From Cantharellus purpuraceus (taxonomy: Eukaryota; Basidiomycota; Agaricomycetes; Cantharellales; Hydnaceae), in the NCBI GenBank assembly GCA_025174535.1, contig JALBUN010000008.1, positions 310,001-374,000 of the forward strand: DNA of 64,000 bases, written 5' to 3'. Of the stretch, positions 7,662-57,804 are shown piece by piece. Under the pieces are notes generated by a model. That model searched no databases, was not told where the DNA came from, and saw only the letters and a program-made list of their open reading frames with translations. A program made the translations under genes and the position numbers. How positions within the stretch are numbered: the first letter of the stretch is position 1; each line of letters opens with the position of its first letter.

Positions 7662-7760
7662 TGTTATGCACTAGGTCTGATTGGGGGTTGGAGACTGGGT
7701 TGGAGATTGGGTTGGAGATTGGGTTGGAGTCAGAGTGGAAATCAGGGTGTGTTGTGGGGG

Positions 7761-9210: not shown

Positions 9211-9215
9211 GGGGG

Positions 9216-16620: not shown

Positions 16621-18267
16621 TTATACATTGCATTTCCTTTTTCCCTTCCCCTTGTCTACCTCAGGCTCCATCTCCAACTCACCATCACTCTCTACATCTG
16701 ATACCCAATCTTTCTCATCCCCCATATCTGAATCTTCGTCCAAGGGGGCCATGAACTTCTGCAGCCAACGCAACTCAGCAGTCTGCCGACCCTCCAGAAC
16801 CTCCTTCCATTTCATCGTCTTCACCAAGTCCACTAGCAACCCCTCCATCCGCTGGAGGTACTCCGACTGAAGGTTAACCAGCCAGATAAGCTGGCCCATG
16901 GTACTATTGGGCACAGAGACGTGCCCTGTACCTGCACCTGTCGTTGCCCCTTCTGATCCAACACCACTACCCCTGGCTGCCACAGCACCCATCTCCATCC
17001 ACCGCTCTTTGGTCGGACAACCTTCTGATTCTTTCTCCACCCCTCCTTGTACCACTAGTCGGGGCTTGACACTCCGACTCCAGGGATCGAACTTTTCATC
17101 GATCCTACATCCTCCTTTCTGACCCTGACAATGATTGCAGGACCAAAGGTGGCAAGTTGGGCCGGTAGGCTACACACACTCCACGCCTGCATCATGACAC
17201 AAGTCGCAAATTACGCCAGGCCCGCCGAATGGCTCTGTTGGAGCCAGAGCCTTGGGTGGTCCACTCCTTCTCGATGCGGCCTCCAAGTGCTCCCTCTCCT
17301 CCTCCTTGTCCTGCTGTTCCACTGCTGCCTTCTCCATCTCGCACTTGCGAAGCTGGATTGCTGACCTAGCGACACGCAGCTCCTTCTTACAGGTTGCCAA
17401 CACACAACTCTCTGCCTTGCACCATATGACCCTCTGGTCCACCTCCCGCTTCTCTGTATCAGCACTTGGGTGCGCCTTCAATGAAAAAACCGCAACCTTG
17501 AGGTTCTTCTTGGTGGTAGCAGCATAAAGCTCCACCCTTTTGCGAGCCTTGACCATGGCTACCCAAGCCATCTCCTCATAACAATTTGAGGTCGGATCCG
17601 GCTCCGCATCCATCCCAACATCCATGCCCGCCTCGGGCTCTGCATTTGTGTCGAGCTCCATATTGGCATCAGGATCTGCCTCCACCTCCACCCTCTCCAC
17701 CTCTGCCGCTTCATCTTCCTCAGCCACACCCACTGCAAATAATGGTGAGTCCACCGTAGGGACAGTTGTCAGACAGGTTGTCTCTGTCTGCGTAATTGAG
17801 ATGATGGTGACCTCAGGGGTCCCTGCCCGTATTGGCACACTTGGGCTCCCTGGGTGACTGGTCGCCCCTGCCCCAGTCACCTCCTCTACCTCCATGGCGG
17901 CTTCTAGCTCGTGCGCCTGCTCCTCCACTTCCTTCAGTCTCGTGGCCTCCATTGCGGCTGCAAGTTCCTTGACCCTGCGGGCTCTCTTGGCTTTCGCTTC
18001 CTCCTCTTTCCTTCTCTGTTCCATCTCCGCCACCTCCTTCCATCTCCGCTCCTCCTCCTCCTCCTTCCATCTTCGCTCCTCCTCCTCCTCCTTCTGTCTC
18101 TGCCCCTCCTCCTCCTTCTGTCTCTGTTCTGCCTCCTCCTCCTCCTTCCGTCTCCGTTCTGCTTCCTCCTCCTCTTTCCATCTCTGCTCCTCTTCCTCTT
18201 CCTTCCATCGGGCCAAGAGCAACTGCTCAAGCTCGGCCACACTCATGCTTGCCAAAGGGTTTGACAT
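16621..18267 (-). pseudogene. Antisense coiled-coil / Zn2Cys6-type gene of E2
   Basis: This gene lies between the pol stop and the 3' LTR, on the strand opposite gag-pol. The likely start is MSNPLASMSVAELEQLLL at 18267, 30-40 nt after a TATAAAAG box (complement near 18300). The N-terminal third is a KEEEEAERRR-type charged helix of 10-residue repeats. A spacer with an acidic stretch follows, then a basic helix, then the first Cys block (CDLCHDAGVEC). TGG is mutated to TAG right after it (17170). The second Cys block, an MGQLIWLVNLQ helix and an acidic segment ending KGKGKRK lie downstream to 16621. Inferred to be a nuclear DNA- or chromatin-binding accessory protein; untested. Confidence 0.8.
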
Positions 18268-24169: not shown

Positions 24170-24369
24170 CTCACAATAGGTCAGCATACTTTTCTTTCCA
24201 TTGATCCCTCAACTGAGGGATCTGACCAGCCATGTAAGTAGTTGATCCTTCACAAGATGAGGCTATTCACATTGTGCTCTTATTTGGATCCTCCATTGGG
24301 GGGTCCTTTACTGAGTCTAGTCCTTCTTTTAGAAAGGACTGCATTGTGGGTAGCTTGTGTTTAGAGTTA

Positions 24370-31051: not shown

Positions 31052-32559
31052 GTTTGATTACTAATGCTAATTCTATTATTTTGCATCATCATTTTATTAC
31101 AAGTCACAAGGGAAATTACCAGCCTGCCAAAAAAACTCCAAAGGAATATCACTCCAACTCATTTTTTTCCACTCCGAAAATTATAATCATTTTCATTTTT
31201 TATTTTTATACATCACGTTTCCTTTTTCCCTTCCCCTTATCTACCTCAGGCTCCGTCTCCGACTCATCATCACTCTCTACATCTGACACCCAATCTTTCT
31301 CATCCCCCATGTCCAAATCCATCCAAAGGGGCCATGAACTTCCACAACCGACGTAACTCGGCTGTCCACCGACCCTCCAGAACCTCCTTCCGTTTCATCA
31401 TCTTCACCAAGTCCACTAGCAACCCCTCCATCCGCCGGAGGTGCTCCAACTGAAGGTTAACCAGCCGGATAAGCTGGCCCATGGTACTATTGGGTGCAGA
31501 GATGCGCCTCGTACCTGCACCGGTCATTGCCCCTTCCAATCCGACACCACTACCCCCGGCTGCCACAGCACCTGTCTCCGTCCACCACTTTTTGGTCGGA
31601 TGACCTTCTGATTCTTTCTCTGCCCCTCCTTGTACCACTAGTCGGGGCTTGACGCTCTGACTCTGGGGATCAAACTTTCCATCGATCCTACACCCTCCTT
31701 TCTGACCCCAACAATGATCGCAGGACCAAAGGCGGCGAGTTGGGCTGGTAGGCCACACGCACTCCACACCCACATCACAACACAAGTTGCAAGTTACACT
31801 GGGCCTGCCAAATGGCTCCGCTGGAGCCAGAGCCTTGGGTGGTCCGCCCCTTCTCACTGCAGCCTCCAAGTGTTCCCTCTCCTCCTCCTTGTCCTGCTGT
31901 TCTGCCGCCACCTTCTCCATCTTGCACTTGCGAAGCTGGATTGCTGACCTCACGACACGTAGCTCCTTCTTACAGGTTGCCAACATGCGACTCTCCGCCT
32001 TGCACCATATGGCCCTCCGATCCACCTCCCGCTTCTCCGTATCAGCACTCGGGTACGCCTTCAATGAAAAGACCGCGACGTCGAGATTCTTCTTAGTGGT
32101 AGCAGCATAGAGTTCCACTCTTTTGCAAGCCTCGACCGTGGCTACCCAAGCCATCTCCTCGTAACAATTTGAAGTTGGATCTGGCTCCGCATTCGTCCTG
32201 ACATCCACACCTGCCTCAGGCTCCACATTTGCGTCGAGCTCCATATTGGCATCAGGATCCACCTCCACCTCCGCCCTCTCCACCTCCGCCGCTTCATCTT
32301 CCTCAGCTGCACCCAACCCAAATAATGGCCGTGTCCATGGACGTAACGGCGAGTCCTCTGCAGTGACAGTTTTCAGACGAGTTGTCTCCATCCATGTAAT
32401 GGAGATGATGGCGACTTCAGGGGTCCCTGTCCATATAGGCACGCTTGGACTTCCTGGACTGGTTGCCCCTGCCCTGGTCACCTCCTCCTCTACCTCCATG
32501 GCAGCTTCTAGCTTGTGCACCTGCTCCTCCACTTCCTTCAGTCTCGTGGCCTTCATCAC

Positions 32560-33074
32560 TGTTATGACTATATTCATCAACGTCCAGATCCCCATCCGAT
32601 CCACTCAGATCCCTGTGCATATGAAATCTATACTCCATTTGGAACCCGCCGTCTCCATCTACCTGTCTGATTGTCACCACCGATTCCGCCCATCCATCTC
32701 CGGTTCCGATTGATGCATCAGCATCACCATAGGAACCTGGACATTTGTCCCCATCGGACTTGGACATACTCATGTAAGGCCGTCGGCCTTGGAGACCCAT
32801 CACCGGAGTAATTATTATTAGATTTCAAAATATGTATTTAAGTTGCCCGACTGGGGACTTCATTCCCCAGTTCAAATATTGAATCATGCCTAGTTCCTAA
32901 GTTCGATCCTAACTCTCTAAGTTGTACTCTGTCTCTGAAATCTTGGACACCAGTATTAGTGAGGGCGCAGCACATAAGCTGAAGCCAAGTCCGTTCCAAC
33001 CCCCATGATGTGCTCCAACTCCGACCAAACCTCCAACCCAATCTCCGACTTCCAATCTGACCTAGTGCGTAACA
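32560..33074 (+). mobile_element. Solo family A LTR in the antisense gene of E3
   Basis: 515 bp, flanked by atcac (32555-32559) and atcgc (33075-33079). These are one duplication differing at a CpG. No internal sequence remains, so it arose by LTR-LTR recombination. Confidence 0.88.
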
Positions 33075-34018
33075 ATCGCAGCCGCAAGTTCCTTGACCCT
33101 GCAGGCTCTCTCGGCCTTCGCTTCCTCCTCTTTCCTTCTCCATTCCGTCTCCACCACCTCTTTCCGCCTCTGCTCTTCCTCCTCCTTGTGTCTCCGTTCC
33201 ACCTCCTCCTCCTCCTTGCATCTCCGCTCTGCTGTCAGTTCGCTTAAGGAATAGATCCTATAAGCCTGCGCGCAACGGTCCTAGCAAACAGACGGTGTGT
33301 AACGCAGTTGTTCAGCACTCCAAAGATCAATCAGGTCGAGGGGTAGAGGTAGCACTGAGTAATAGGGAAGTGGGATAGTGCTCTGTGGTTGGATGAGGAT
33401 GGGAGCAAAAGGTCAATCCCAATGGCTGATCATGCTCTGTGACTGGATGACAATGTGGAGCCCGGTTGGGAGGTATGTGAAAGCTGGTTTCAGGAGAAGC
33501 GACCTCTCGGTGGCGGAGGGAAATCTGATCGTTGAACCAAGGTGTTTTACCTCAGTGTAGAGATGATGGATTGTGATGTAGAGCGTAGAGCGTAGACTTA
33601 GAGTGTGGACTTTGACTTTAGAGCATTGGCTGAAAACCTGTTGATTCCTTCCAAAGGCAAAAACTAGTGCCCTTTTATATACAAATCCACAGGACACAAT
33701 GACACAATATGAGGAGCAAATGATGTGATATGATGCAAGAAATGCTGATCAAGCCAGCTGACAAAGCATGTGAAGTTGAACTACTAATGGGGAAATCATA
33801 GAGAAATGAAATGACAGATAGGGGTAATCTTTGTAAGAATAGGAGGTGATGAGTAATAAAAGAACCAAAAATAGAACAAGGATGAGTAAGTCATGTATGA
33901 ATGAATTAAAAGATGAAACAGGGGTGAGTCATATAAAAGAACAATAGAAACATCCACCAATACCATCTTCCCTACAGCTCCGAAGGTAAATTGACCCTGA
34001 GTCACATGAGGACTTCAG

Positions 34019-34453
34019 TCAGCATCCACAACAAATACTCCTTATTGTCTTAGCGATACGTCTCCATATGGTATCCTGTTCCAAGGGTATTCGGTCCCTT
34101 TGCCTGACACGATGTAACCTGAGTTGGATTGAAGTGGGAGGATGGGTCAGTGATGGCGACTGAAATTCTACCTCACGTTCAACTCTTCTATCCATGTTAC
34201 GATATAGAGGTGAAATGCTGAGGAATGTATATGGTTCAACGGAATTGTGAAAGAATATGGGATCGCCAATGGCATAAGAGAGACATGGTGGGGATCTTGG
34301 ACGTTGAAAGAGTTTTGGAAGTATTTTGACACGTGGAGGTGGCTTAACATGCCCATGGAGCTTGGCGTATTTTTGATAGTCCTCTGTGTCCAGAGACCAG
34401 TGTGATGTATTATTAGAAGAGATGTTGGAGAGGGGAATAGAATTGGAAGCCAT
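34019..34453 (-). CDS. 144-aa ORF of element F (unknown function), copy 2
   Basis: Same protein as at 12376-12810: MASNSIPLSNISSNN start, PPPRVKILPKLF, SYAIGDPIFFHNSVEPYTF, basic C-terminus ending SICCGC. All 144 codons are open despite about ten substitutions relative to copy 1. G is inserted about 20 bp upstream of the ATG, so this copy is cut off from the likely F promoter. Family not recognised. Confidence 0.55.
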   Translation of the reverse strand: MASNSIPLSNISSNNTSHWSLDTEDYQKYAKLHGHVKPPPRVKILPKLFQRPRSPPCLSYAIGDPIFFHNSVEPYTFLSISPLYRNMDRRVEREVEFQSPSLTHPPTSIQLRLHRVRQRDRIPLEQDTIWRRIAKTIRSICCGC

Positions 34454-35342
34454 GTGAATGATGATGAAAGGATGTTCTGGAACCGTGAACTTCAACCTAA
34501 ACTGTGGTGTTAATTGTTATTTGGAAGACTGGACTTCTAGGGAGAAAGGGGAGAGGGGAACAGAGGGGGAACAGAGGTGATAGGAGGGACAGGAGCACAT
34601 AGGAGGCTCAGGAGGTTGAGGGGGAGGTAGGAAAGCGAGGGGAAATGGTTAGGAGGGAAGAGGAGAAGCCCCTGTAAGCTCCACACCCATCAGATCATTC
34701 TCCTATATTTCTTTTATATTTTATTTCATCATTTTTCCCCTATTGGCTCCACCCCCCATTTCGTTTTTATCACAAGTTTCTTTCCCATGTTTCAAATGAC
34801 TCAGGACTTTTATCACATGTTTTAAAGACACATATCCTGTATAAAACACGCTTAGCTAGATATGAAATTGACTAGAGAATTTCCTCTCACCTGTTTCTCT
34901 TGTCTGTGTTTGAACTATTCGTGGAATAACTCCAGAACGAACACGTATCCCATCACTTCCTCTGTCCCTACTCGAAATCTACTCTCCACTCACCCCCAGC
35001 AAGGTGAAAATTTTGTTTTTCAACATTAATCACAATCTAAGTTTAGCCCAAGGATGTATGACCTTTCAAGGCTAGCAATAAGCTTGAAACTATTTTAACG
35101 GAGAACCCAATTAAGAAATTATACTCCGGTGAACAATCACAATCAATGTTGCCACAGGAAGTGAAGCAATAGAGATTTATGCTTGTCATGTGTAGTTCAC
35201 GCTTTACTGCTGATGCAATGTAAAGTCAAAGATTGACAGGCGTTCAAGGGTTCAGATACTTCAAAGGGGGAAGTAACCTAGTGCCTTAGTACCATGAGTT
35301 AAGTGGATTAAAGCTAACAATAATCCCTTCAATGTAAAAAGA

Positions 35343-35883
35343 TGTTACGCACTAGGTCCGATTGGGGGTTGGAGATTGGATCGGAGGTTGGGTTGGAGTT
35401 AGGGTCGGAGGTTGGGTCGGGGTCGGAGTACGTCGTGGGGGTTGGAACAGACTTGGCTTCAGCTTATGTGCTGTGCCCTCACTAATACCGGTGTCCGAGA
35501 TTTCGGAGACGGAGTACGACTTTAGAGAGTTAGGATCGGACTTAGGAGCTAGGCATGATTCGATATTCGAACTGGGGAATGAAGTCCCCAGTCGGACAAC
35601 TTAAATACATATTTGAAATCTAATAATAATTACTCCGGTGATGGGTCTCCGAGGCCAACGGCCTTACATGAGTATGTCCAAGTCCAATGGGGACAGATGT
35701 CCAGGTTCCTATGGTGATGCTGATGCATCAATCGGAACCGGAGACGGATGGGCGGAATCGGTGGTGACAATCGGACAGGTAAATGGAGACGTAGCAGTTT
35801 CCAAATGGAGTATAGATTTCATATGCGCGAGGATCTGAGTGGATCGGATGGGGATCTGGTCATTAATGAATATAGTCATAACA
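35343..35883 (-). mobile_element. Solo family A LTR in G
   Basis: 541 bp, tgttacgcactagg...atagtcataaca, flanked by aaaga at 35338-35342 and 35884-35888. It is the innermost insertion of the stack antisense gene / F2 / G / A. Confidence 0.93.
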
Positions 35884-36043
35884 AAAGATAGATATGCACT
35901 TGAACACTTCCTTCTGAACAAGCGTATTCACTGTACGTGTTTATCCGTGATAGAATCAACAGTCAAGGGATATCAATCTCATCTCAAAGAGGTGAGTTAA
36001 TAGACTGTGTTGTTGATTTATTGAAATGCCCACAATTGAACCA

Positions 36044-36253
36044 ACCAATCAATAGCAAAGTATGTGTTAACCTGACTAACCTCAGAGTCTCAATTAAATG
36101 TGCAGTATTCTTGACCAATCAATAGCCTAGTATGTATTAACCTGACTAACCTCAGAGTCTCAATTAAATGTGCAAGATTCTTGATTATAACCAATAGCCT
36201 GATACGTGATAATTTGGCTAACCTCAGTCATTACATGTGTAAGGTTCTTGATC
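36044..36253. repeat. Three imperfect tandem repeats of about 70 bp in G
   Basis: Units start at accaat in 36044, 36114 and 36190. Shared core: aatagc, ttaacctgactaacctcag, and a cluster ending in ttcttga. Units 1 and 2 are almost identical and unit 3 is diverged. No function assigned. Confidence 0.8.
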
Positions 36254-37491
36254 AATGAATAACAATTAATACACTTCAAGTTACTGCTCCGAGTGGGCTT
36301 GTAGTGTGTTAATTACTAATCAGTTACTCCATATTAACCTCTTCTCCGAGTTTGAATAATATTAGAGCCTGCTGTGCTTGTAATATAATAACTTCTGGCT
36401 TCTCCGAGAGTCAATCAAAGTTAATATACACTAAGAGTAGCTGATATAAGTGTGATGCTTATGTGATGATTACTCAATGCTTGAGTAGACACTGCTGTGT
36501 GTGTGTGGTAAAAAGATATTATTTTTGCACTGCTGTTGCAGCCCTTTTTATATACATGGACTATCTAGCTTATGTAACTAATCAGAGAACATTCCTGGCA
36601 CTTAGGGAAGCCCCTGGAAGGAAAGAGAAGGCCAGGGAACCTTGTGGAAGGTCCAGGAAGGTGTCAGAAGCTTCTGTGGCCGCTTTTGGCTGAAGTGTGC
36701 AAACTCCAATGATTATGTAATGCACACGTCGTTCGCTCGGGCACGAGTGCTCGTCGGAGTTGAATGACAGATTATATCAGCAACCGACCCCTTGTGTACA
36801 CTTGTACACTTGTGGGCTCAAATACACAAAAAAGCAAATATAAGTACATTCAATAGAACATTTGAAATACCTTTAAACTACTAAATAATAGTCCTTATTT
36901 GAAGTAGTTTAGAACTGCATATACCCCAACAAAGGATCGGTGTGAATAGAAGGCTGATAATGATTGATGGCGATGAAACATGAGTGACGATTGATGGCTA
37001 GAATTAGAGACTGAGGTGGAGAGGGGAATTGCGGTGCTATTTAAAAGTTGATACGAAAAGACGCTAGCGGAGTTGGACTGTCAGAGTGGTTCGATATATG
37101 TCCTCGAGGTGTCCTGGCTCATCACCGCCTCCTCCTCCTTGCGTCTCCGTTCCGCCTCCTCCTCCTCCTTGTGTCTCCATTCCGCCTCCTCCTCCTCCTT
37201 CCGTCTCCGTTCCACCTCCTCCTCCTCCTTCTGTCTCCGTTCTGCTTCCTCCTCCTCTTTCTGTTTCCGCTCCTCTTCCTCTTCCTTTCATCGGGCCAAG
37301 AGCAACTGCTCAAGCTCGGCCACGCTCATGCTTGCCAAAGGGTTTGACATCGTTGAGGATAAGACCTCAATCATGCCCCTCCTTTTATATGTCTCCAGAC
37401 CCCCAGTATAACTCTGACTGTGCCCCACCGTCTCACCTATTCAATCCGTGGACATGAGGCCTCAGGGGCTCGGCCCTACATGGAGAGATAC

Positions 37492-38004
37492 TGTTATGAC
37501 TATATTCATTAACAACCAGATCCCCATCCGATCCACTCAGATCCCCACGCATATGAAATCTATACTCCATTTGGAAACTGCCACGTCTCCATCTACCTGT
37601 CCAATTGTCACTGCCAATTCCACCCATCCATCTCTGGTTCCGATTGATGCATCAGTCACCATAGGAACCTGGACATCTGTCCCCATTGGACTTGGACATA
37701 CTCATGTAAGGCCGTCGGCCTTGGAGACCCATCACCGGAGTAATTATTATTAGATTTCAAATATGTATTTAAGTTGCCCGACTGGGGACTTCATTCCCCA
37801 GTTCGAATATTGAATCACGCCTAGCTCCTAAGTCCGATCCTAACTCCCTAAGTCGTACTCCGTCTCCGAAGTCTTGGACACTGGTATTAGTGAGGGTGCA
37901 GCACATAAGCTGAAGCCAAGTCCGTTCCAACCCTCACGACATACTCCGACTCCAACCCGACCTCCAACCCGATCTCCGACCCCAATCGGACCTAGTGCAT
38001 AACA
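37492..38004 (+). repeat. Family A LTR shared by E3 (3') and E4 (5')
   Basis: 513 bp, TGTTATGACT...GTGCATAACA. Preceded by the E3 polypurine tract (acatggagagatac) and followed at once by the primer site and gag of E4. Confidence 0.93.
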
Positions 38005-38036: not shown

Positions 38037-39155
38037 ATGCCACAATCCACCGCCAATTCCAAACACGCCCGAATCGTCGAGGTACCCGCCCCCAGCATCG
38101 ACACCATCCCCAAGGTCGTCAAAGAACCGACGGACCACATAGAGGCCGTCAATGAAGAAGACGACACCCCACCCTCTCCAAATCTGGCGCAAGCCATCTC
38201 CCTGCTCGCTAGCAGCATCCGTAACCCACAAGCTCCCAACTCCCGGACCAAGGTCCGAGAACCCAACCCATTTGATGGCTCCGATCCACGAAAGCTCCAG
38301 TCATTCTTGGTGCAATGCCGGTTGAATTTCCGCAATCGCCCCGATGCATTCACATCCGATCGGGCAAAGGTCACCTTCACCATGTCCTATCTCAAGGGCA
38401 CCGCACTGGACTACTTTGAGCCAGCGCTCATGGATGACTCCAATGACCCGATATGGTCAGAGGACTACTCCGACTTCATCTCCGAGCTTTGGACCAATTT
38501 TGGTCTGTACAACCCCGAAGCCGATGCCGAGAATGAACTCGATTGACTTCGGATGAAGGAAAATCACAAAATCGCAAAATACATTGTGAGTTTCCAGCAG
38601 CTAGCTCTGAAAGTCCAATGGGGCGACGCCGCACTCCGACGCCAATTTTACGTTGGACTCCCATCCCGCATCAAGGATGAGATATCACGCGTCAGTAAGC
38701 CGGATAGTTTGGCTACCCTTCGCAAGCTCGCCCAATCCATCGACGCCCGTTATTGGGAACGTCAATCTGAGGTCTCCCGCGAAAATTCGGCTAACAACAA
38801 ATCGGACAAATCATCGGACAAAACTCCAAAGTCCAACAAGGGGTCCAATAAGCAGGCCACCGCCAACTCAGGCCAGAAATCAAACACTGGTAACGCTGCC
38901 GCTTCCGGTTCCGGTCAGAACAACTCCGGCACCAGCAATAACTCCAGAGCTCGCAAGAGTACTCCGGACCTCTCCACCAAGCTGGGAAAGGATGGGAAAC
39001 TTACCCAGCAGGAACACCAGCACCGCATGGACAACAACCTCTGTCTGTTCTGCGGGAAGCCTGGTCACCAAGCCAAGGATTGCAACAAGGCAACCTTGTC
39101 CGCAGCAAAGGTGAAGGGCCGCACCGCCAACGCCATGACGGACCAAAAAAAATAG
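38037..39155 (+). pseudogene. gag of E4 (one premature stop)
   Basis: 372 codons from ATG 38037 (MPQSTANSKHARIVE) to TAG 39153-39155. The only obvious defect is TGA at 38544-38546. Both parts are otherwise open. Capsid-like region (WSEDYSDFISEL, RRQFYVGLPSRIKDEI), Ser/Asn/Lys linker, zinc knuckle CLFCGKPGHQAKDC. It is the least decayed gag in the window. It ends on an A-run (A AAA AAA T AG), the frameshift site for pol. Confidence 0.88.
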
Positions 39156-42100
39156 TAAGCAGTCCTATAGCCTCCGTACAGGCTGAGGGCTGGGTTGGTA
39201 CTCCCCATACGACAGACGAGGTCTGCCTGAACGCATCCACTCTTTCCCACTCCGACTCCCTTACCCTCCTCGTCCACTCCGACTCCATTCCCGATACCAC
39301 TATTCAAGCATTAATTGACTCCGGTTCTACTCACTGTTTCCTCGATTCCTCTTTTTCTGATTTACATAAACTCCATACATACACCATAACTCCAATACCA
39401 CTCCGATTATTTGATGGCACTACTAATGCTGTTATTTCACAAGCTATAGATCTGTCTATCCGTTTTTCTGTCGGAGAAATCCAGACCCTTACATTCTATG
39501 TTACTCCGCTTGACTCCAGCTGTTCTGTGGTTCTCGGCCATAACTGGCTCACCCGCTACAATCCGTTGATTGACTGGGCATTGGGCCATATCACATTCCA
39601 TTCTCCAGTACAGGCTGTGTCATCCCTGACGTCACCAGCAACTCTAGGTGTGAAATTATCTTCCGCCTCTGCTGACCCCGCTCCGATAGATGCTCCATCT
39701 ACCCCTCCGTTTATATTGATGGTGGACGCTATGGTCTTTGCCAGACTAAGCAAGCTGGACAGTTCTCACACATTCCAGGTCCACCTCTCCGATCTGATAT
39801 TCCTCGCCGCTCGTTCTGCCTGATCCACTCCACCGGACCTCTCTATGGTTCCCAAGGAGTATCATGAGTTCGCCAACGTGTTCAGCAAGTCTAAAGCCAA
39901 CTCCCTAGCAGAACACCGACCATATGATCTCAAGATCAAACTGGATGACAACTCCACCCCTCCGCTTGGCCCTATCTACTCGCTATCCCAAAAAGAGCTA
40001 CTGGCTCTCCGGACATTCATAGATGAGAACTTGGCCACAGGCTTCATCCGCCCATCCCTATCTCCTCATGGAGCTCCGGTCCTATTTGTCCGCAGAAAGG
40101 ACAGATCACTCCGTCTATGCGTTGACTTCCGTGGGCTCGAGTGGTGTGTCATGCCCTTCGGACTAACCAATGCTCCGGCTGCCTTCCAGAGGTTCATGAA
40201 TGATGCCTTTGCCGACCTCCTCGACGTGACCGTCCTCGTTTACTTAGACGACATTCTGGTATATTCGGACAACGAAGAAGAACATCGGACATGTCCAAGA
40301 GGTACTCTGACGTCTCCGAACACCTGTGCTGACAAATGCGAATTCCACTCTGACTTGGTCGAATACCTAGGCTATATCCTCTCCCCGGCAGGATTGACAA
40401 TGTCCGACGACAAAATCAAAGCCATACAGGAATGGCTGGAACCCTGGAAAGTCAAGGACATACAGTTCTTCCTCGGGTTCGCCAACTTCTACTGCCGCTT
40501 TATTCACAGCTACTCTGATATCACTGTTCCGCTCACCTGACTCACTAGGAAGGGTATCCAATGGAATTTCACTGATGAATGTAGACAGAGTTTTGAGACC
40601 TTGAAAAAGGCCTTTACTTCTGCTCCGATACTGACTCATTGGGTTCCAGACGTTCCCATCCTTTTAGAGACCGACACCTCCGACTATGCACTTGCCGCGA
40701 TCCTGTCCATCATCTCTCCAGATGACGGACAAGTCCACCCGATCGCTTTTCACTCGCGTACATTTACGCCCTCCAAACTGAACTATGATGTCCATGACAA
40801 AGAGCTCCTTGCCATATATGAAGCCTTCTGGATATGGAGACACTACCTTGAAGGTCCCTCCGATCTGGTGGATGTCATAACTGACCACAAGAACTTGGAA
40901 TACTTCTCCACAACAAAACTGCTCACCCAGAGACAAGTCTGATGGTCCGAATACCTATCTCAGTTCAATCTCATTATCTGTTTCCGTCCAGGTCCACTCA
41001 GAGCAAAGCCTGACGCGCTAACTAGACGCTGGGACGTCTACCCTAAAGAGGGGAATAGCGACTATGCCACTGTAAACCCCCACAACTTTTGTCCTGTGTT
41101 TACTAACGAGCAGCTGGCATCATCCCTACAAGCATCCACCCTCATAACTCCCACCCTCTGAGCTGTCACCATTATGGACATTGACCAACTCCATTCCGAC
41201 ATCCGCTCATCACTCCGATCCGATCCTGTTGCAGTTAAACACTTGGACAACCCTTCCAATCCGAAATGGTCACTTGACCCCAAAGGACACCTCCGACACA
41301 ACAACCGGATATACGTCCCCAACGCCAATGGCCTCCGACTCCAAGTTTTGCAGTATTATCATGATCACCCGATCTCCGGCCACTTCAGGCAAAATTGCAC
41401 ACAAGGATTAATCCGATGAGACTATGTATGGCCAAAAATGCGGGAATACATTCAACACTACTGTAACTCCTGCACCACGTGTATGCGCTCAAAATCGCAA
41501 AGGCACAAACCCTATGGAACGCTCAAACAACTTCTGATCCCAGAGCAACCATGGAACTCCATCTCCATGGACTTCATAGAGAAGCTCCCCCCATCACTTG
41601 GATATGACACCATACTCGTGATTGTTGACAGGTTCACCAAACAGTCACTATTCATTCTGACGCATGACACCATCACCTCCACCTCGCTAGCTAAATTGTT
41701 TGTTCTCCACGTATTCTCTAAACACAGAGTCCCGTCGCATGTCACATCTGATCAGGGCTTGGAGTTTGTGTCCTCCTTCTTCCGCACATTAGGAAAGGCT
41801 CTCGACATGAAGCTCCATTTCACCTCCGGATACCACCCTGAAGGAGACGGACAAACGGAATGAATGAATCAGTCCCTGGAACAATATCTCTGAATCTATT
41901 GTAACTATCAACAAGACAACTGGGCTGATCTACTTCTGATCGCAGAGTTTGCCTACAACAATGCTCCAAACGCGACTACCGGCATCTCTCCGTTCTTTGC
42001 TAATAAAGGCTACCATCCGAACATCTCCGTCCACCCCGAGAAAGAACTTGCCTCCACCAAAGCCTGCCAATTCGTAACCGACCTTGATCAACTACACCAA

Positions 42101-42590
42101 CATCTCCAAGAGACCATCTCCGATGCTCAGAAACAATATCAAGTCTCCGCAGACCGATGCCGCATCCTGGCTCCGGACCTGCAAATCAGAGACAAAGTAT
42201 TCGTTAAGGCTGAACACTTCCGGACCACCCGCCCATCGAAGAAACTCTCCGAGAAATACTTAGGTCCTTATGAGGTCATTGCTTGCGCGGGCAGCAGGTC
42301 TTTCACCCTCCGCCTCCCAGACCACTTCCGAGCAGTTCATCCGGTCTTCCATATATCAATGCTCGAGCCTGCTACCACGAATGAGATCTCCGGTCGCACG
42401 CAACCTCCACCTCCCCCGATCATCATCAAAGGAGATAATGAATATGAGATCTGAGATCCTGGACTTGAAGATTGACCGTCAATACAAGTGCAAGCTCCAG
42501 TACTTAGTCAAATGGACTGGGTATGAAGGCACCGATGAAGAGTCTTCATGGACCTCTGCATCTGAACTCGATCACACATCCGAATCCGTC
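39146..42590 (+). pseudogene. pol of E4 (RT motif A deleted)
   Basis: Protease DSGSTHCFLDSS at about 39320 and RT to VDFRGL at 40139. An in-frame deletion of about 174 bp follows, removing the KIDLQHAYH motif-A block with its catalytic Asp. [13 protein letters not shown] and YLDDILVYS (about 40240) remain. RNase H ([13 protein letters not shown], 40670). Integrase (MDFIEKLPPSLGYDTILVI at 41560; TSDQGLEF; EGDGQTE at 41850). Chromodomain (LVKWTGYEGTDEESSW) at about 42505. It is truncated near 42587 by a deletion that fuses it to the middle of the antisense gene. Confidence 0.88.
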
Positions 42591-43949
42591 CACCTCTTTT
42601 TGGTCAGACGACCCTCCGATTCCTTCTCTGCCCCTCCTTGTACCACTAATCGGGGCTTGACGCTCCGACTCCGGGGATCAAACTTCCCATTGATCCTACA
42701 CCCTCCTTTCCGACCCCGACAATGATCGCAGGACCAAAGTCGGCGAGTTGGGCCGGTAGGCCACACACACTCCACACCCGCATCATGACATAAGTCGCAA
42801 GTAAAGCCGGGTCCACCAAATGGCTCCGTTGGAGCCCAGAGCCTTGGGTGGTCCACCCCTTCTCGCTGCGGCCTCCAAGTGTTCCCTCTCCTCCTCCTTG
42901 TCCTGCTGTTCTGCCGCTGCCTTCTCCATCTCACGCTTCCGAATCTGAATTGCCGACCTTGCAACATGCAGCTCCTTCTTACGGGTTGCCAACACGCGAC
43001 TCTCCACCTTGCACCATATGACCCTCCAGTCCGCCTCTCACTTCTCCATATCAGCACTCAGGTAGGCCTTCAGGGAAAAGACCACGATGTCGAGTTTCTT
43101 CTTAGTGGTAGCGGCATAGAGCTCCGCTCTTTTGCGAGCCTTGACCACAGCTACCTAAGCCATCTCCTTGTAAGAATTCAAAGTAGGATCCGGCTCCGCA
43201 TCCATCCCAACATCCATGCCCACCTCGGGCTCCGCAGTTGCATCGAGCTCCATATTGGCATTGGGATCTGCTTCCACCTCCACCCTCTCCATCTCCGCCG
43301 CATCATCTTCCTCAGCTGCCCCTAACTCAAATAAGGGCCATGCCCGTGGGCGTAACGGCGAGTCCTCCGCAGTGACAATCCTTGAACAAGTCGCCTTTGT
43401 CCGTGTAACGGAGATGATGGCAACTTCTGGGGTCCCTGGCCGTATTGGCACACTTGGACTTCCTGGGTGGCTGGTTTCCCCTGCCCCGGTCACCTCCTCC
43501 TCTACCTCCATGGCCGCCTCTAACTCGTGCGCCTGCTCCTCCACTTCTTTCAGTCTCACAGCCTCCATCGCTGCCACAAGTTCCTTCACCATGCGGGCCC
43601 TCTCAGCCTTCACTTCCTCCTCTTTCCTTCTCCATTCCGTTTTCACCGCCTCTCTCCGTTCCGCCTCCTCCTCCTCCTTGCGTCTCCATTCCGCCTCCTC
43701 CTCCTCCTTGCGTCTCCGTTCCGCCTCCTCCTCCTCCTTCCGTCTCCGTTCCATCTCCTCCTCCTCCTTCCGTCTCCGTGCTGCCTCCTCCTCCTCCTTC
43801 CGTCTCCGTTCTGCCTCCTCCTCCTCCTTCCGTCTCTGTTCTGCTTCCTCCTCCTCTTTCCGTTTCTGCTCCTCTTCCTCTTCCTTCCGTTGGGCCAAGA
43901 GCAACTGCTCCAGCTCGGCCACGCTCATGCTTGCCAAAGGGTTTGACAT
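42588..43949 (-). pseudogene. Antisense coiled-coil / Zn2Cys6-type gene of E4 (3' truncated)
   Basis: Start MSNPLASMSVAELEQLLL at 43949. About seven or eight 10-residue charged repeats (RKEEEEAERR type) lie at 43900-43620. The VKELVAAMEAVRLKEVEEQ helix is followed by an acidic spacer to about 43155. The VARSAIQIRKREMEKAAAEQQDKEEE helix and the six-Cys cluster (CDLCHDAGVEC ... SCDHCRGRKGGC) follow in a shifted frame. The C-terminal helix and basic tail are deleted at the 42587 junction with pol. Confidence 0.82.
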
Positions 43950-43980: not shown

Positions 43981-43988
43981 CTTTTATA
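43981..43988 (-). promoter_or_regulatory. TATA box of the antisense gene, E4
   Basis: TATAAAAG on the minus strand, about 105 bp inside the 3' LTR junction. The ATG of MSNPLAS lies 39 nt downstream of the box, giving a very short leader if transcription starts 28-34 nt after TATA. The same box and spacing occur in E2, E3 and E5. Confidence 0.6.
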
Positions 43989-44090
43989 TGTCTCCAGACC
44001 CCCAGTATAACTCCAACTGCGCCCAATCGTCTCACCTATTCAATCCACGGACATGAGGCCTCAGGGGCTCGGCCTTAAATGGAGAGATAC

Positions 44091-44617
44091 TGTTATGACT
44101 ATATTCATTAACGCCCAGATCCCCGTCTGATCCACTCAGATCCCCACACACATGAAATCTATACTCCATTTGGAAACCGCCACGTCTCCATTTACCTGTC
44201 TGATTGTCACCGCCGATTCCACCCATCCATCTCCGGTTCCGATTGATGCATCAGCATCACCATAGGAACCCGGACATCCGTCCCCATCAGACTCAGACAT
44301 ACTCATGTAAGGCCGTTGGCCTCGGAGACCCATCACCGGAGTAATTATTATTAGATTTCAAATATGTATTTAAGTTGCCCGACTGGGGACTTCATTCCCC
44401 AGTTCGAATATTGAATCATGCCTAGCTCCTAAGTCCAATCCTAACTCCCTAAGTCGTACTCCATCTCCGAAGTCTCGGACACTGGTATTAGTGAGGGCGC
44501 AGCACATAAGCTGAAGCCAAGTCCGTTCCAACCCCCACGACATACTCCGACTCCAACCCGACCTCCAACCTGACCTCTGACCCAATCTCCGACCCCAATC
44601 GGACCTAGTGCGTAACA
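44091..44617 (+). repeat. Family A LTR, 3' LTR of E4
   Basis: 527 bp, TGTTATGACT...GTGCGTAACA, preceded by aaatggagagatac. The right flank gtgga belongs to a family C LTR that this element interrupts. Confidence 0.93.
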
Positions 44618-45614
44618 GTGGATACCCTTCTTTTTGCCTGATCAGTGCCTAGTTCAGGGATCAGATCAGGTGATTGCCTTGAAATATTCTACCCCTTTCC
44701 ATAACATTCTAGCTGTTTCCTTCTATTATTAGATAGAACATTCCAGAACCATTATTCAGCTCCTGATCAGTGTCATTGCAGTGATCAGAACCTGTGATTG
44801 GCTTGGAATATTCTACCCCTTTCTTCCACCTTCCACAACTTTCCAGTATTTCATCTATTAATAGGTATAATATTCCAGAAGCATTAGTCAGCTCCTGTAA
44901 ATACAATATATAAGGAGGTCATTCTGCCTCTGAAAGAAGAACATATTCAACCTATTCTACCCATCTTCTGCACACCAGTGTGACTAGAGTGACATACAGT
45001 GTCATCCTCTATCTCAGTAACTGTTGATTACCAGTTCAAGGATCTTTTACAGTTGTGTAACTGTACTTGATTGCACTCAAAGTAGTGATATTCCTGCTTT
45101 GGGCATGAGTGTAATATCTGCCTCACGTGACTACGAATCTACAGGGTGAGATTGTCTGTCGATAGTCCTGCCATTAGTGCTCTTGTTTAAGCTACTAGTG
45201 TGTACTGCCTTTGCAGAGAATTAGGATCTTGAACTCGTGTGAAGCAGTTGCTAGACCACTTCACACATCACTGTTACCCGCTTCAGAGTGTCACTGGTTG
45301 GACAGTCGGATTCATCCACCTACTTCCTCTAGCCTCTAAGTGCATTCCCCTCTTTTGGGAATATCTGGACCCCTAAGCGTCTGTGAACTCTAGACTCTGG
45401 AAGTCTTATTCATCTCTTGCTGCTAAGAAACATATTACCTTTCTGTGTATAGTCTGCATTGACCAATACAAAGGATTGTAACCAAAGTACAAACATTAAA
45501 TTGTTTCTGGAGTTGTGCTGCAGCAGGGTTTGATATTCTTCTCAGCTGTTCATTCATGGAATTGTGGTGATTTAGAGTTTGCCCTAACACCATAATTTTG
45601 CAGGTTCCAAAACA
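44618..45614 (+). mobile_element. Family C LTR, copy C3 (5' part missing)
   Basis: The 3' 997 bp of a C LTR, ending ...GGTTCCAAAACA. It matches C4 from 50323 onward. It contains TATATAAGG (about 44918) and TGATCA motifs in place of the TGASTCA array. Its 5' part should carry a gtgga duplication but is not adjacent, consistent with the rearrangement described under findings. Confidence 0.82.
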
Positions 45615-47894
45615 GGAAGGCTTGATTCTTCACCAAAATTGATCTCCAGCATGCTTACCATCTTGTCCAGATTCACAAAGGTGATGAATGGAAAACTGTG
45701 TTTCGCACTTGATATGGCTCATTCAAGTAGTGCGTTATGCCCTTCAGACTTACCAATGCTCCAGCAGCATTCCAACATCTTATGAATGACATCTTCTCTG
45801 ACCTCCTGGATATATGCATCCTCATGTACTTGGATGATATCCTGATATACTCTGACAACTCCAAAGAACACAGCAACCATGTCTGTGAAGTCCTTCTCAG
45901 ACTCCAGAAAAACAAGCTGTATGCTCAAGCTGACAAATGTTCTTTCCATGAAAGCACAGTTGAGTACCTCAGATATATATTGTCTCCAAACAGACTTACT
46001 ATGGACTCCAGCAAAGTCCAGGTAATGCAAGATTGGCCAGAACCCCACAAAGTCAAAGATGCACAATCCTTCTTAGGATTTGCCAATTTCTATAGGTGTT
46101 TCATATTCAACTACTCCGATCTCACATGTCCACTGACTTGTTTAACTCATAAAGGAACTCCATGGGAGTTCTTGGACTCCTGCCAGACATCCTTCGAAAT
46201 GTTAAAGAGAGCTTTCACTACAGCTCCAGTCTTATCACAATGGAACCCAGGATCTCCAATCATTGTAGAGACCAATGCCTCTGACTATGCACTAGTGGCC
46301 ATTCTATCAACCATCTCTCCAGCAGACAACAAGGTTTATCTGATAGCTTTCCATTCTTGGACTTTCACTCTGGCAGAACTCAACTATGATGTCCATGATA
46401 AAAAACTACTTGCAATCTTTGAAGCTTTCAAGTCCTGGCAACATTACCTTGAAGGATCTCCAACTCCAGTCGATGTCATCACAGACCACAAAAACCTCAA
46501 ATATTTTTCAACTACCAAACTCCTTACTAGGTGGCAAGCCCACTGGTCCAAATTCCTGTCCCAGTTTAATCTGGTAATCTGTTTCCATCCCAGAAAACTC
46601 AGTACAAAACCAGACTCATTAACTAGATGATGGGACATCTATCCTAAAGAGGGAGGAAATGATTACACAGCAGTAAATCCACATAATCTTAGGCCTGTGT
46701 TCACTGACGAACAGTTAACCACTTCCCTCTGAGCAATGGCATTCTATTCCCCAGTCCTCCAAGCAGCCATCACTATGGACATCAATACACTCCACTCTGA
46801 TATCTGATCTGCACTCCAATCAGATCCAGCCATCTCCAGACATCTCATTAAACTGACCAATCACTGGTCCATTGACCCAGAAGGCTTACTCTGTCTTGAC
46901 AACCGCATCTATGTTCCTGATGTGAACAATCTCCAGCTCCACATACTCCAGAACAAACATGACCATCTGGTCTCCAGTCATTTTGGACAGAACCGAACTA
47001 TAGAACTAGTCAGGTGGGACTATGTCTGGCCTGAACTCCATAGTTCTGTTAAGTCCTACATCAAGTCTTGTACCACTTGTATGCACTCAAAGTCACAGAG
47101 ACATCATCCTTATGGACTACTCAAGCAACTCCCCATTCTGGAGAGTCCATGGAACTCCATATCCATGATCTTCATCAAGAAGCTTCCAGCATCCTCCGGT
47201 TATGACACCATCTTAGTTATTGTGGACCACCTTACCAAACAGTCCATTTTTATTCCTACAGTCGACACCATCACAGCTCCTATGCTTGCAAAACTATTTG
47301 TGCTCCATGTCTTTTCCAAGCATGGAGTTCCATCACACATTACCTCCAACTGTAGTACAGAGTTTGTGTCCTCCTTTTTCTGAACCCTTGGAAAAGCTTT
47401 GGACATCAAACTCCATTTCACCTCTGAATACCACCCGGAAGCCAATGGACAAACCAAATGAATGAACCAGACCATGGAACAGTATCTCCAAGTCTACTGC
47501 AACTACCAACAGGACAACTGGTCTGACTTACTTCCCATCGCAGAATTCGCATATAATAATGCTCCAAACACCACTACTGGCTTATCTCCATTCTTTGCCA
47601 ACAAGGGTTATCACCCAAACATCTCCATACATCCCAAATGAGACCTTGCTTCCTCAAGAGCTTAAAACTTTACTGTGGACCTCAATGAACTCCATCAGCA
47701 TCTCTGAAAGACCATCTCCGATGCTCAACTCTGATACTCCACCTCTGCTGACCACCACCAATCCCCAGCCCCAGACTTCAAGGTTGGAGACAAGGTTTTC
47801 ATCAAATCTGACAATATCTGTACAACAAGACCTTCCAAGAAACTATTGGAAAAATACCTCGGTCCTTTCAAAATCATCACTCAAGCGGGCTCTA
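45615..47894 (+). pseudogene. Family E chromovirus pol: RT, RNase H, integrase (left-hand fragment)
   Basis: RT starts within [19 protein letters not shown] (45640), with [13 protein letters not shown] and YLDDILIYS (45830). RNase H (TNASDYALVAILS at 46270, [11 protein letters not shown] at 46505). Integrase (HFGQNRTIELVRWDYVW at 46980, CTTCMHSKSQRHH, MIFIKKLPAS, TSNCSTEF, YHPEANGQ at 47430). About as open as family A but clearly diverged from it. Several stops. It ends at ctcta 47890-47894 where the E5 3' LTR begins. The remainder lies inverted at 25586-25738. Confidence 0.85.
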
Positions 47895-48550: not shown

Positions 48551-51500
48551 GAGTGTGGCAGAGCTTGAGCAGTTGCTCTTGGCCTGACGGAAAGAAGAGG
48601 AAGAGGAGCGGAAACGGAAAGAGGAGGAGGAAGCAGAACAGAGACAGAAGGAGGAGGAGGTGGTGGAATGGAGACGGAAAGAGGAGGAGGAGGCAGAATG
48701 GAGACGCAAGGAGGAGGAGGAGGCAGAATGGAGACGGAAGGAGGAGGAGGAGGTGGAACGGAGATGCAAGGAGGAGGAGGCGGAACGGAGACGCAAGGAG
48801 GAGGAGGAGGCGGAATGGAGACGCAAGGAGGAGGAGGAGGCGGAACGGAGACGCAAGGAGGAGGAGGAGGTGGAACGGAGACGGAAGGAGGAGGAAGAGC
48901 AGAGGCGAAAAGAGGCGGCGAAGATGGAACGGAGAAGGAAAGAGGAGGAAGTGAAGGCCAAGAGAGCCCACAGGGTCAAGGAACTTGCGGCCGTGATGGA
49001 GGCCACGAGACTGAAGGAAGTGGAGGAGCAGGCGCACAAGCTAGAAGCTGCCATGGAGGTAGAGGAGGAGGTGACCGGGGCAGGGGCAACCAGTCCAGGA
49101 AGCCCGAGTGTGCCTATACGGACAGGGACCCCTGAAGTCACCATCATCTCCATTACATGGACGGAGACAACTCGTCCGAAAACTGTCACTGCGGAGGACT
49201 TGCCATTACGTCCACGGGCACGGCCATTATTTGGGTTGGGTGCAGCTGAGGAAGATGAAGCGGTGGAGGCGGAGAGGGTGGAGGTGGAGGCGGATCCCGA
49301 TGCCAATATGGAGCTCGACGCAAATGCGGAACCCGAGGCGGGTGTGAATGTCAGGACGAATGCGGAGCCAGATCTAACTTCAAATTTTACGAGGAGATGG
49401 CTTGGGTAGCCACGGTCAAAGCTCGCAAAAGAGCGGAGCTCTATGCCGCTACCACTAAGAAGAATCTCGACGTCACGGTCTTTTCATTGAAGGCATACCC
49501 GAGTGCTGATACAGAGAAGCAGGAGGTGGATCGGAGGGTCATATGGTGCAAGGCGGAGAGTCGCGTGTTGGCGACCCGTAAGAAGGAGCTGTGTGTCGCT
49601 AGGTCGGCAATCCAGCTTCGCAAGTGCAAGATGGAGAAGGCGGTGGCAGAACAGCAGGACAAGGAGGAGGAGAGGGAACACTTGGAGGCTGCAGCAAGAA
49701 GGGGCAGACCACCCAAGGCTCTGGCTCTAGCGGAGCCATTTGGCAGGCCCGGCGTAACTTGCAACTTGTGTCATGATGCAGGCATGGAGTGTGTGTGGCC
49801 TACCGGCCCAACTCGCCACCTTTGGTCCTGCAATCATTGTCGGGGTCAGAAAGGAGGGTGTAGGATCGATGGAAAGTTTGATCCCCAGAGTCGGAGCGTC
49901 AAGCCCTGACTGTATGGGAACCACCTTTTCCCTATCAAATTCCATTTATGCAGCACCAATGTGCTATTCTTTGCTTTTCCATTCCTAAATATCAGCATAT
50001 ATTTGATGCTTGTACCTGGAATGGACTTATTCAAATATTCTCTATTTTTCCATATTTTTTCGGGAATATTCCATGCAGAACTCAGCTCAGAATCATTTAT
50101 TTCTGCTGTGCTACAGTTGTGGACCCATAGGCGCCCACAAACCTTCGCGCAGCCGGCTCTCCCCTTTTGGACCAGGCATTTGGCCTGAATTCAAGCTCAG
50201 ATGTCTCTGATCAATAAATATTCTGTAACTTAACAACCACAGCCTCTCAGGGCACTATTTTCCGTGCAGATCATCACCTGACATGTGGCTATCCATGGCT
50301 GTCCAAACCAGTGCAGAAAACAGGGTGGACACCCTTCTTTTTGCCTGATCAGTGCCTAGTTCAGGGGTCAGATCAGCTGATGGGTGATCAAATCAGGTGA
50401 TTGCCTTGGAATATTCTACCCCTTTCCATAACATTCTAGCTGTTTCCTTCTATTATTAGATAGAACTTTCCAGAACCATTATTCAGCTCCTGATCAGTGT
50501 TAGTGCTGTGATCAGATCCTGTGATTGGCTTGGAATATTCTACCCCTTTCTTCCACCTTCCACAACCTTCCAGTAGTTTCCATCTATTAATAGGTACAAT
50601 ATTCCAGAAGCATTAGTCAGCCCCTGTAAATACAATATATAAGGAGGCCATTCTGCCTCTGAAAGAAGAACATATCATCATCATATTCTACCCATCTTCT
50701 GCACACCAGTGTGACTAGAGTGACATACAGTGTCATCCTCTATCTCAGTAACTGTTGATTACCAGTTCAAGGATCTTTTACAGTTGTGTAACTGTACTTG
50801 ATTGCACTCAAAGTAGTGATATTCCTGCTTTGGGCATGAGTGTAATATCTGCCTCACGTGACTACGAATCTACAGGGTGAGATTGTCTGTCGATAGTCCT
50901 GCCATTAGTGCTCTTGTTTAAGCTACTAGTGTGTACTGCCTTTGCAGAGCATTAGAAGCTTGAACTCGTGTGAAGCAGTTGCTAGACTACTTCACACATC
51001 ACTGTTACCCGCCTCTGAGTGCCACTGGTTGGATGGTTGGATTCATCCACCTACTTCCTTTAGCCTCTAAGTGCATTCCGATCTTTTCAGAATATCTGGA
51101 CCCCTAAGTGTCCGTGAACTCTAGACTCTGGAAGTCTTATTCATTTCTTGCTGCTAAGAAACATATTACCTTTCTGCGTATAGTCTGCATTGACCAATAC
51201 AAAGGATTGTAACCAAAGTACAAACGTTAAATTGTTTCTGGAGTTGTGCTGCAGCAGGGTTTGATATTCTTCTCAGCTGTTCATTCACGGAATTGTGGTG
51301 ATTTAGAGTTTGCCCTAACACAATAATTTTGCGGGTTCCAAAACACTGACTAGTGGTACAAGGAGGGGCAGAGAAAGAATCAGAAGGTCATCCAACCAAA
51401 AAGTGGTGGATGGAGACAGGTGCTGTGGCAGCCAGGGGTAGTGGTGTCGGATCGGAAGGGGCAACGACCGGTGCAGGTACGGGGTGCATCTCTGTGCCCA

Positions 51501-51799
51501 ATAGTACCGTGGGCCAGCTTATCCAGCTGGTTAACCTTCAGTCGGAGCACCTCCAGTGGATGGAGGGGTTGCTAGTGGACTTGGTGAAGACGATGAAATG
51601 GAAGGAGGTTCTGGAGGGTCGGCAGACAGCCGAGTTACGTCGGTTGCAGAAGTTCATGGCCCCTTTGGATGAGGATTTGGACATGGGGGATGAGAAAGAT
51701 TGGGTGTCAGATGTAGAGAGTGATGATGAGTCAGAGACGGCATCGGAGGCGGAGCCTGAGGTAGATAAGGGGAAGGGAAAAAGGAAACGCGATGTATAA
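48551..51799 (+). pseudogene. Antisense coiled-coil / Zn2Cys6-type gene of E5 (split by C4)
   Basis: A 13-nt loss after the ancestral ATG (48539) leaves the second Met, MSVAELEQLLL (about 48551), in frame; a TGA follows at the usual Arg codon. The charged 10-residue repeats (48600-48900) are open from 48660 to 49409. A 1-nt loss near 49390 shifts the frame, and 49397-49909 is open with all six Cys (CNLCHDAGMEC ... SCNHCRGQKGGC). C4 then interrupts. From 51353 to the TAA at 51797-51799 it is open again: QLIQLVNLQSEHLQWMEG helix, acidic DEDLDMGDEKDW segment, tail KGKGKRKRDV. AATAAA-like signals follow the stop. It is the least damaged copy apart from C4. Confidence 0.85.
49911..51345 (+). mobile_element. 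Family C solo LTR, copy C4
   Basis: 1435 bp, TGTATGGGAA...CCAAAACA, flanked by ctgac at 49906-49910 and 51346-51350. Variant of C1/C2: instead of the TGASTCA array it has several TGATCA motifs (50346, 50384, 50491, 50509) and a partial duplication of about 124 bp of a segment beginning tggaatattctacccc. TATATAAGG lies near 50636. Confidence 0.9.
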
Positions 51800-57370: not shown

Positions 57371-57804
57371 TGTTACAGGATGTAACAACCATTGTTTCTG
57401 CCTATACATCTCCAGTTTTGTTGATACATCAGCATCACCATAGGAACCCAGACACCCATCCCCATTGGACTCAGACATACTCATGTAAGGCTGTCAGCCT
57501 TGGAGACCCATTAACCAGAGTAATTATTATTAGATTTCAAATATGTATTTAAGTTATACTACTGGGGACTTCATTCCCTCAGTTTGAATATTGAATCACA
57601 TCTGGGTCCCAAGTCTGATCTGAAACTATCTAAGGCATACTCTGTCTCTGAAACCTTGGACACCAGTATTAGTGAGAGCACAGCACGTAAGCTGAAGCCA
57701 AGTCTGTTCTGACCATCACAACTTTACCCCAACTCTGACTCTGATTCTGACTCTGACTTTGACTCCAAAGATCTGACCCCTCCCATTGGACCCAGTGCAT
57801 AACA
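57371..57804 (+). repeat. Diverged family A-like LTR
   Basis: From about 57420 to 57804 it follows the A LTR order (gatacatcagcatcaccatagg, the actggggacttcattcc hairpin, tgaatattgaatcaca, cccagtgcataaca), but with many non-CpG differences and a CT-rich repeat block. The 5' border (TGTTACAGG at 57371) is uncertain and no TSD was found. Probably a solo LTR of a related subfamily. Confidence 0.65.

Follow-up and report, generated by a model that had tools for sequence, protein, structure and literature searches.

A chromovirus lineage of Cantharellus purpuraceus carries a gene on the strand opposite to gag-pol, between the end of pol and the 3′ LTR, which is spread over the lineage and has been kept under purifying selection between rounds of transposition. 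A conserved element-borne gene of this kind, with coiled coil, acidic regions, a cysteine cluster and a basic tail, had been proposed from one 64,000-nucleotide stretch of DNA (the window), and open frames elsewhere in the genome as well as the selection analysis support that original prediction. As to what the gene does, we lean towards reading it as an accessory gene that belongs to a lineage of fungal chromoviruses and encodes a coiled-coil, probably dimeric regulator or desilencer of the LTR with a half-swapped Zn2Cys6-like cluster.

The element copy in which the gene was recognised (the target copy) is a Ty3/gypsy chromovirus on the plus strand, bounded by two LTRs (Table 1). It was classed as a chromovirus because frames of sister copies gave the Pfam set from gag to chromodomain. 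Scans of the frames of loci L009, L011 and L018 returned gag, RVP_2, RVT_1, RT_RNaseH, Integrase_H2C2, rve, SH3_Tf2-1 and Chromo and, together with the LTRs, bore out the predicted class; the chromodomain match was obtained on the sister copy L011, not on the target copy. The order gag-PR-RT-RH-IN, the C-terminal chromodomain and the flanking LTRs are the features that define a chromovirus. LTRs of these elements run from TGTTA to TAACA, and target-site duplications of 5 bp are visible at L009, L010, L015 and L023. At 37125-38004 of the window two chromovirus copies stand next to each other in a tandem arrangement, with one LTR between them.

Table 1. Features of the target copy, the other gene copies of the window and the repeat-bearing LTR tails (window positions unless a locus is given).
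Feature	Position	Strand	Remark
5′ LTR of target copy	37491..38004	+	directly after the end of another copy; common to both copies
gag C-terminal piece, CCHC zinc knuckle	38553..39155	+	zf-CCHC, E 2.1e-4
Protease piece	39080..39823	+	RVP_2 (Pfam)
Reverse transcriptase piece	39845..40540	+	pol runs on to the chromodomain near 42580
Antisense gene, broken copy	42587..43949	-	between the end of the pol chromodomain and the 3′ LTR
Six-cysteine cluster C-X2-C-X6-C-X12-C-X2-C-X6-C of target gene copy	42698..42799	-	
TATAAAAG box, 5′ of antisense start	43981..43988	-	
3′ LTR of target copy	44090..44617	+	TGTTA...TAACA; distal CCGA-type repeats at 6/12-bp steps
Second window gene copy	16621..18267	-	stop within the cysteine cluster
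Third window gene copy	31206..37350	-	divided by nested insertions; piece 31300-32604 with the whole cluster
Fourth window gene copy	48551..51799	+	insertion at about 49911-51348; C-terminal piece open
LTR tails with CCGA repeats	window 44500-44617; L018:8364-8868; L016:9241-9840; L021:5483-6058		

The start of the target gene at 43949 (reading MSNPLASMSVAELEQLLL), its strand, the order of its motifs and the spacing of the six cysteines were all present in the sequence as predicted. From this start the copy keeps the coiled coil, the acidic spacer, the second helical region and the cysteine cluster. Compared with the copy in L009 it is about 580 bp short at window 42585-42590, and the gap comprises the end of pol and the C-terminus of the antisense gene, so that the leucine-rich helix, the acidic segment and the KGKGKRKR tail are gone. 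The rest contains in-frame stops and a frameshift ahead of the cysteine cluster; the target copy is dead. Four copies with constant parts had been claimed for the window, and the gene is indeed found in all four, but the target copy does not have the C-terminal parts; each of the four is broken or interrupted, the fourth by an insertion of 1.4 kb. Three MSNP starts, at 18267, 37350 and 43949, were also found independently. The window also holds a 1.4-kb repeat at 49911-51348, 7760-9222, 22708-24170 and 44797-45614; two of its copies are 97% identical, and over part of its length the repeat is related to the insertion in the fourth gene copy. A second chromovirus family, with a pol about 67% identical, lies at 45633-47724 and a diverged LTR at 57401-57804; no antisense gene was found beside this second pol, where another element follows directly downstream.

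The 40.15-Mb, 50-contig assembly that contains the window was then searched with two protein searches, matches within 600 bp being merged into one gene place. At least 196 gene places were listed, a count in which a copy split by an insertion may figure twice. Of 144 listed pol ends, 93 were followed within 9 kb by a listed gene on the opposite strand, in 81 cases at no more than 1.3 kb from the pol end; 6 of the 144 had a listed gene on the same strand within 9 kb. Among the 51 pol ends with no listed gene, nine of the first ten carried it nevertheless, in the right orientation and several in pieces; at the tenth (L029) another element follows. Absence from other elements of the lineage, which had been named in advance as an argument against the gene, was therefore not what we found. 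At L021:7955-8824 (minus strand) a diverged relative of the gene (58%) lies beside a diverged pol (65-87%) in the same layout; this gene has decayed, with stops and lost cysteines, and L021 represents an older lineage. Capture of a host gene on a single occasion, the other argument foreseen, is rejected as a description of the present state by the listed and sampled pol ends and by this second, diverged element. No source host gene appeared among the best matches listed in the genome.

An uninterrupted frame from MSNP to a KGKGKRKR-type tail, 549-649 aa long, was present at nine of 20 loci that had been chosen because their frames looked open, the tail being judged by pattern (L009, L010, L013, L015, L017, L018, L020, L025 and L027). 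The variation in length lies mostly in the ten-residue repeats of the coiled coil. In L014 and L023 the frame is open but its start is altered; L011, L012 and L026 begin normally and have lost the tail through a late frame change. L012 and L022 share a stretch of 9.8 kb, element included, at 99.2% identity and are segmental or assembly duplicates.

The 175 bp upstream of the start are nearly identical among copies, and 27 of 29 rows (from 28 places, since L003 and L009 are one) have the TATAAAAG box ahead of the start; it is missing in L024 and L027, both of which are rearranged there. All 35 distinct tails in which the frame reaches its normal end stop with TAA, and in 22 of the 35 an AATAAA follows within 45 bases of the stop. 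With a TATA box, an uninterrupted frame and a TAA stop, the gene has the appearance of a self-contained transcription unit.

Selection on the protein was assessed by comparing copies codon by codon, leaving out all positions at which any of them has a CpG. Changes common to at least two copies, most of them older than the latest transposition, were tallied separately from singletons. In 25 copies, the 60 shared changes at residues 262-577 comprised 14 nonsynonymous, 46 synonymous and no stop changes, where 39.9, 18.4 and 1.7 were expected (omega 0.14). Singletons of the same residues gave 1.19, as expected from decay after insertion. At the end of pol, tested in the same way, shared changes gave 0.08 and singletons 0.43, and residues 110-262 of the gene gave 0.31 for shared changes. 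A second sample, not selected for openness, consisted of the window copies and of ten loci from pol ends where no gene was listed; it gave a shared omega of 0.18 with no stop among 65 changes, and 0.59 for singletons; singletons are thus not cleanly neutral everywhere, as the 0.59 for the gene and the 0.43 for pol show. Because L012 and L022 are duplicates within the 20 loci, some late changes may have been counted as shared, which can only raise the shared omega. The dN/dS comparison with CpG sites masked, proposed as a check on the original prediction, came out far below 1 in both samples, and the protein is kept between transpositions nearly as strictly as pol.

The same counts were made in five other frames, where shared omega was 1.88, 4.72, 1.82, 5.37 and 0.26; the last of these values belongs to an opposite-strand frame whose third positions coincide with those of the gene, and this frame has three stops. 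The gag-pol-strand frames of the gene region accounted for 1.82, 5.37 and 0.26, against 0.14 in the gene frame, and for 2.61, 1.96 and 0.40, against 0.18, in the second sample. Both a shadow frame of the purine-rich coiled coil and an ORF on the gag-pol strand were rejected by these frame tests.

Zn2Cys6 domains (PF00172) have the spacing C-X2-C-X6-C-X5-12-C-X2-C-X6-8-C, and the C-X2-C-X6-C-X12-C-X2-C-X6-C of the antisense protein falls within this range in all 12 aligned proteins. A Pfam scan of the 577-aa frame gave no match at E values up to 10; among the 12 relatives two were listed for Pfam Zn_clus, the better with an E value of 9.7, and the cut-off was not reached. The genome as a whole yielded 42 Zn_clus matches, 32 of them above cut-off, and none of the 42 lay within 2.5 kb of 113 listed gene places. 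Three host Zn2Cys6 domains were readable among eight loci, and in each of them the basic half (e.g. CDACRARKVRC) comes first. The element cluster begins with a neutral to acidic half, and its basic half, CDRCRSRKAGC, is the second, so the basic DNA-contact residues that mark the first CX2CX6C half of a Zn2Cys6 domain were not found in that position. Profile comparison with the same three host domains, a small test, aligned the cluster over 14 columns in natural order (probability 34.6) and over 42 columns when the halves were swapped (probability 61.8), which suggests a resemblance to Zn2Cys6 as two halves in reverse order. Of the predicted Zn2Cys6 type, then, the spacing stood, but the Pfam family was not convincingly reached and the basic half is the second.

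An AlphaFold model built for a clade of metagenomic relatives (38 sequences) predicted long helical regions at 10-78 and 114-223, mostly with pLDDT above 90, a C-terminal helix at 353-411, mostly with pLDDT 81-86, and one short helix at each CX2C, the cluster itself having pLDDT of about 47-73. An earlier model, with a mean pLDDT of 46.1, was too weak for use. Fold searches of the PDB and of viral models returned generic coiled coils and no match at E ≤ 0.001. Searched with a profile, the PDB sequences yielded a single chance match (E 1.7), and a single-sequence search gave coiled-coil matches, the best being eIF3a at E 0.001.

Outside this genome, single-sequence searches found one JGI metagenome protein (P0001, 39% identity), and a profile of seven sequences reached 33 metagenome proteins, all from JGI and each from one contig. 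One of these, P0006, is complete at 448 aa and has its parts in the same order as here: a MSSSVENMSIADIEKLL start, coiled coil, an acidic stretch, a helical region with EKAAAEQQ and the cluster, followed by PAKRRR, a glycine-rich stretch and a C-terminal helix, without the KGKGKRKR tail. In an alignment of ten of the 33 with two proteins of this genome, between-clade identity is 34-36%, and the six cysteines are invariant in all 12, as are a tryptophan two residues after the third cysteine and a lysine four after the fifth. Both clades have a matching start motif (in the complete proteins), the cluster and a C-terminal GQL..LV..Q.EH block. The complete six-cysteine pattern occurs in 13 of the 33; in P0014 and P0022 the first cysteine has been lost, and the other 18 show no recognisable cluster surroundings, 12 of these having no cysteine at all. 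Variation between metagenome copies runs from Arg to Trp or Gln, and from this resemblance to CpG decay alone the relatives may be genes of a multicopy retroelement. Five of them (P0010, P0017, P0018, P0027 and P0028) are named SlyX or aspartate beta-hydroxylase by their source, probably misnamings from coiled-coil similarity. A prokaryote or virus origin was also considered and rejected: scans of viral and of prokaryote contigs, with two patterns in each, found no relative.

Zn2Cys6 proteins bind CGG triplets, and the LTRs of the elements are rich in CCG/CGG, with CCGA repeats at 6/12-bp steps near the 3′ end. The end was located in 37 of 39 LTRs, and among these the number of 12-bp units per LTR lies between 0 and 8; it differs even between the two LTRs of one element, with 7 and 3 in L011 and 7 and 1 in L019. 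In the L018 LTR, CCG stands at -115, -96, -90, -78, -66, -54, -42 and -30. Distances of 24, 6, 30 and 12 between CCG triplets are favoured in the last 160 bp of the 37 LTRs; the 6-bp step is also the most frequent one elsewhere in the LTR and so is not special to the tail. At its end, the diverged window LTR has six-base repeats in decayed form. When the two LTRs of an element were compared, in ten pairs, most differences were of CpG type: 21 of 23 in L009, 22/24 in L010, 14/15 in L015 and 24/24 in L023, the four with visible target-site duplications; 33/35 in L028, 25/29 in the target copy (tandem arrangement) and 21/24 in L011. The share was lower in L017 (10/16, tandem), L019 (39/54) and L018 (23/31, the 3′ LTR being cut by the end of the stretch). 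Since the elements decay so heavily at CpG, a means against methylation would pay. The genome search for Tet_JBP gave two matches, both below cut-off; with the CpG-type decay and the 32 Zn_clus matches above cut-off, these would be in keeping with a basidiomycete.

It is likely that the protein acts as a nuclear DNA-binding regulator or anti-silencing factor of the element's own LTR. The antisense gene would be transcribed independently, against gag-pol, from its own TATA box, to give a coiled-coil and probably dimeric product with a half-swapped Zn2Cys6-like cluster and with acidic and basic, NLS-like stretches. Such a protein would be nuclear and bind two zincs, and its cluster may recognise short sites with CGG/CCG, among which the CCGA repeats of the LTR are the most plausible; once bound there it would regulate the LTR or relieve CpG-directed silencing. 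Against this reading stand the lack of a convincing Pfam or fold match, the distance of the genome's Zn_clus matches from the gene places, the modest model confidence in the cluster, the singletons that are not cleanly neutral, and the LTR repeats themselves, whose unit number varies and whose 6-bp step recurs outside the tail. In the most specific version, a basidiomycete-type chromovirus lineage encodes its own sequence-specific factor, a coiled-coil dimer whose half-swapped Zn2Cys6 cluster reads the LTR repeats with CCGA at 6/12-bp steps and so opens the element in the face of CpG methylation. This version is put forward tentatively and is rather unlikely; if true, it would provide a retroelement counterpart of VANC and add a new layout to the fungal binuclear cluster.

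A place in integration or in the particle is an alternative that we take seriously while thinking it rather doubtful. The coiled-coil protein would then accompany the Gag/integrase complex, and nuclear import, chromatin tethering or cDNA handling, instead of transcription, would be what its basic tail and cluster assist. The three long helical regions of the model and the basic tail would suit such an adaptor, the gene adjoins a chromodomain integrase, and its omega is of the same order as that of pol. The promoter-like box of its own, however, points to expression at a level and a time separate from those of gag-pol, as one would expect of a regulator more than of a particle protein. It is quite improbable that the cysteines form a zinc fold unrelated to Zn2Cys6, as in a structural protein or nucleic-acid chaperone that contacts protein or RNA. 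This would agree with the failure of Pfam and fold searches to give a convincing match, and with a neutral to acidic first half in an order absent from the three host domains read, but the spacing lies within the Zn2Cys6 range and the second half resembles the DNA-contact half of host domains.

The antisense transcript rather than the protein might also be what matters, forming dsRNA with the gag-pol transcript and so controlling copy number; the position of the gene is right for this, and such a role has been discussed for plant antisense ORFs (PMC7264820). The low omega and the lack of stops among 60 shared changes speak for the protein, since the wrong frames gave 1.82-5.37 apart from the 0.26 frame with its three stops, and antisense RNA as the sole function is largely refuted and, in our estimate, very improbable.

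Placed among known systems, the protein family appears to be new, no account of a cysteine-cluster antisense gene in a fungal chromovirus having been found in titles and abstracts of the open-licence literature, whereas an antisense extra gene as such is of a known kind. The brtn gene of Botrytis cinerea, reportedly first described by Zhao et al. in 2011, is likened to it here from the description in citing papers and not by sequence. It is an extra antisense gene of a fungal Ty3/gypsy element, Boty / BcGypsy1 (PMC7264820, PMC8365987), and antisense extra ORFs between pol and the 3′ LTR were already in print, also for a fungus (PMC7264820). Tcn1-like chromoviruses, again likened by description only, have an extra ORF of unassigned function (PMC2864245).

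The aORF-3R genes of plant LTR retrotransposons (Grande gene23, RIRE2 and Retand TRP28; PMC7264820, PMC11963269) resemble the gene in position, orientation, presence in most copies and conservation about like that of other element proteins, which for the protein here is 0.14 and 0.31 against 0.08 for pol. That of Grande has its own upstream promoter, to which the conserved box here may correspond, and a nuclear or DNA-binding role has been suggested for plant aORF-3R proteins as well (PMC7264820); the Retand TRP28 protein is predicted to bind DNA and has tandem repeats nearby (PMC11963269). Unlike the gene described here, aORF-3R genes have plant hosts and TRP28 or SMC domains, and Retand belongs to a non-chromovirus lineage; a six-cysteine cluster is not described for them in the accessible text of these two papers. 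Nor does the accessible literature hold an agreed function for antisense extra genes of LTR elements. With its many copies, clean selection evidence, deep homologues, recognisable metal-cluster layout and candidate LTR target, the present gene makes the question of regulation or desilencing directly testable.

Fungal Zn(II)2Cys6 factors (PF00172) share with the protein the spacing, an RK-rich CX2CX6C half and, in the model, a short helix at each CX2C, but differ in that the halves are reversed here, the Pfam model is not reached and the gene is borne by a transposon; Pfam found no other transcription-factor domain in the antisense protein. A half-swapped Zn2Cys6-like cluster, if true, would indicate how much freedom there is to rearrange the fungal cluster. 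VANC of the Arabidopsis VANDAL elements would offer a parallel in function, as an element-encoded factor that acts on short motifs repeated in tandem in non-coding DNA (PMC5735166, PMC10398659). It belongs to a plant DNA transposon and its activity has been demonstrated, whereas a counterpart role here is proposed by analogy, and no relation to VANC was found by name or domain. HBZ of HTLV-1 resembles the proposed regulator, by general description only, as an antisense gene that begins near the 3′ LTR and encodes a dimerising nuclear regulator; it differs in being a spliced bZIP gene of a human retrovirus. An antisense promoter is described for HTLV (PMC7264820).
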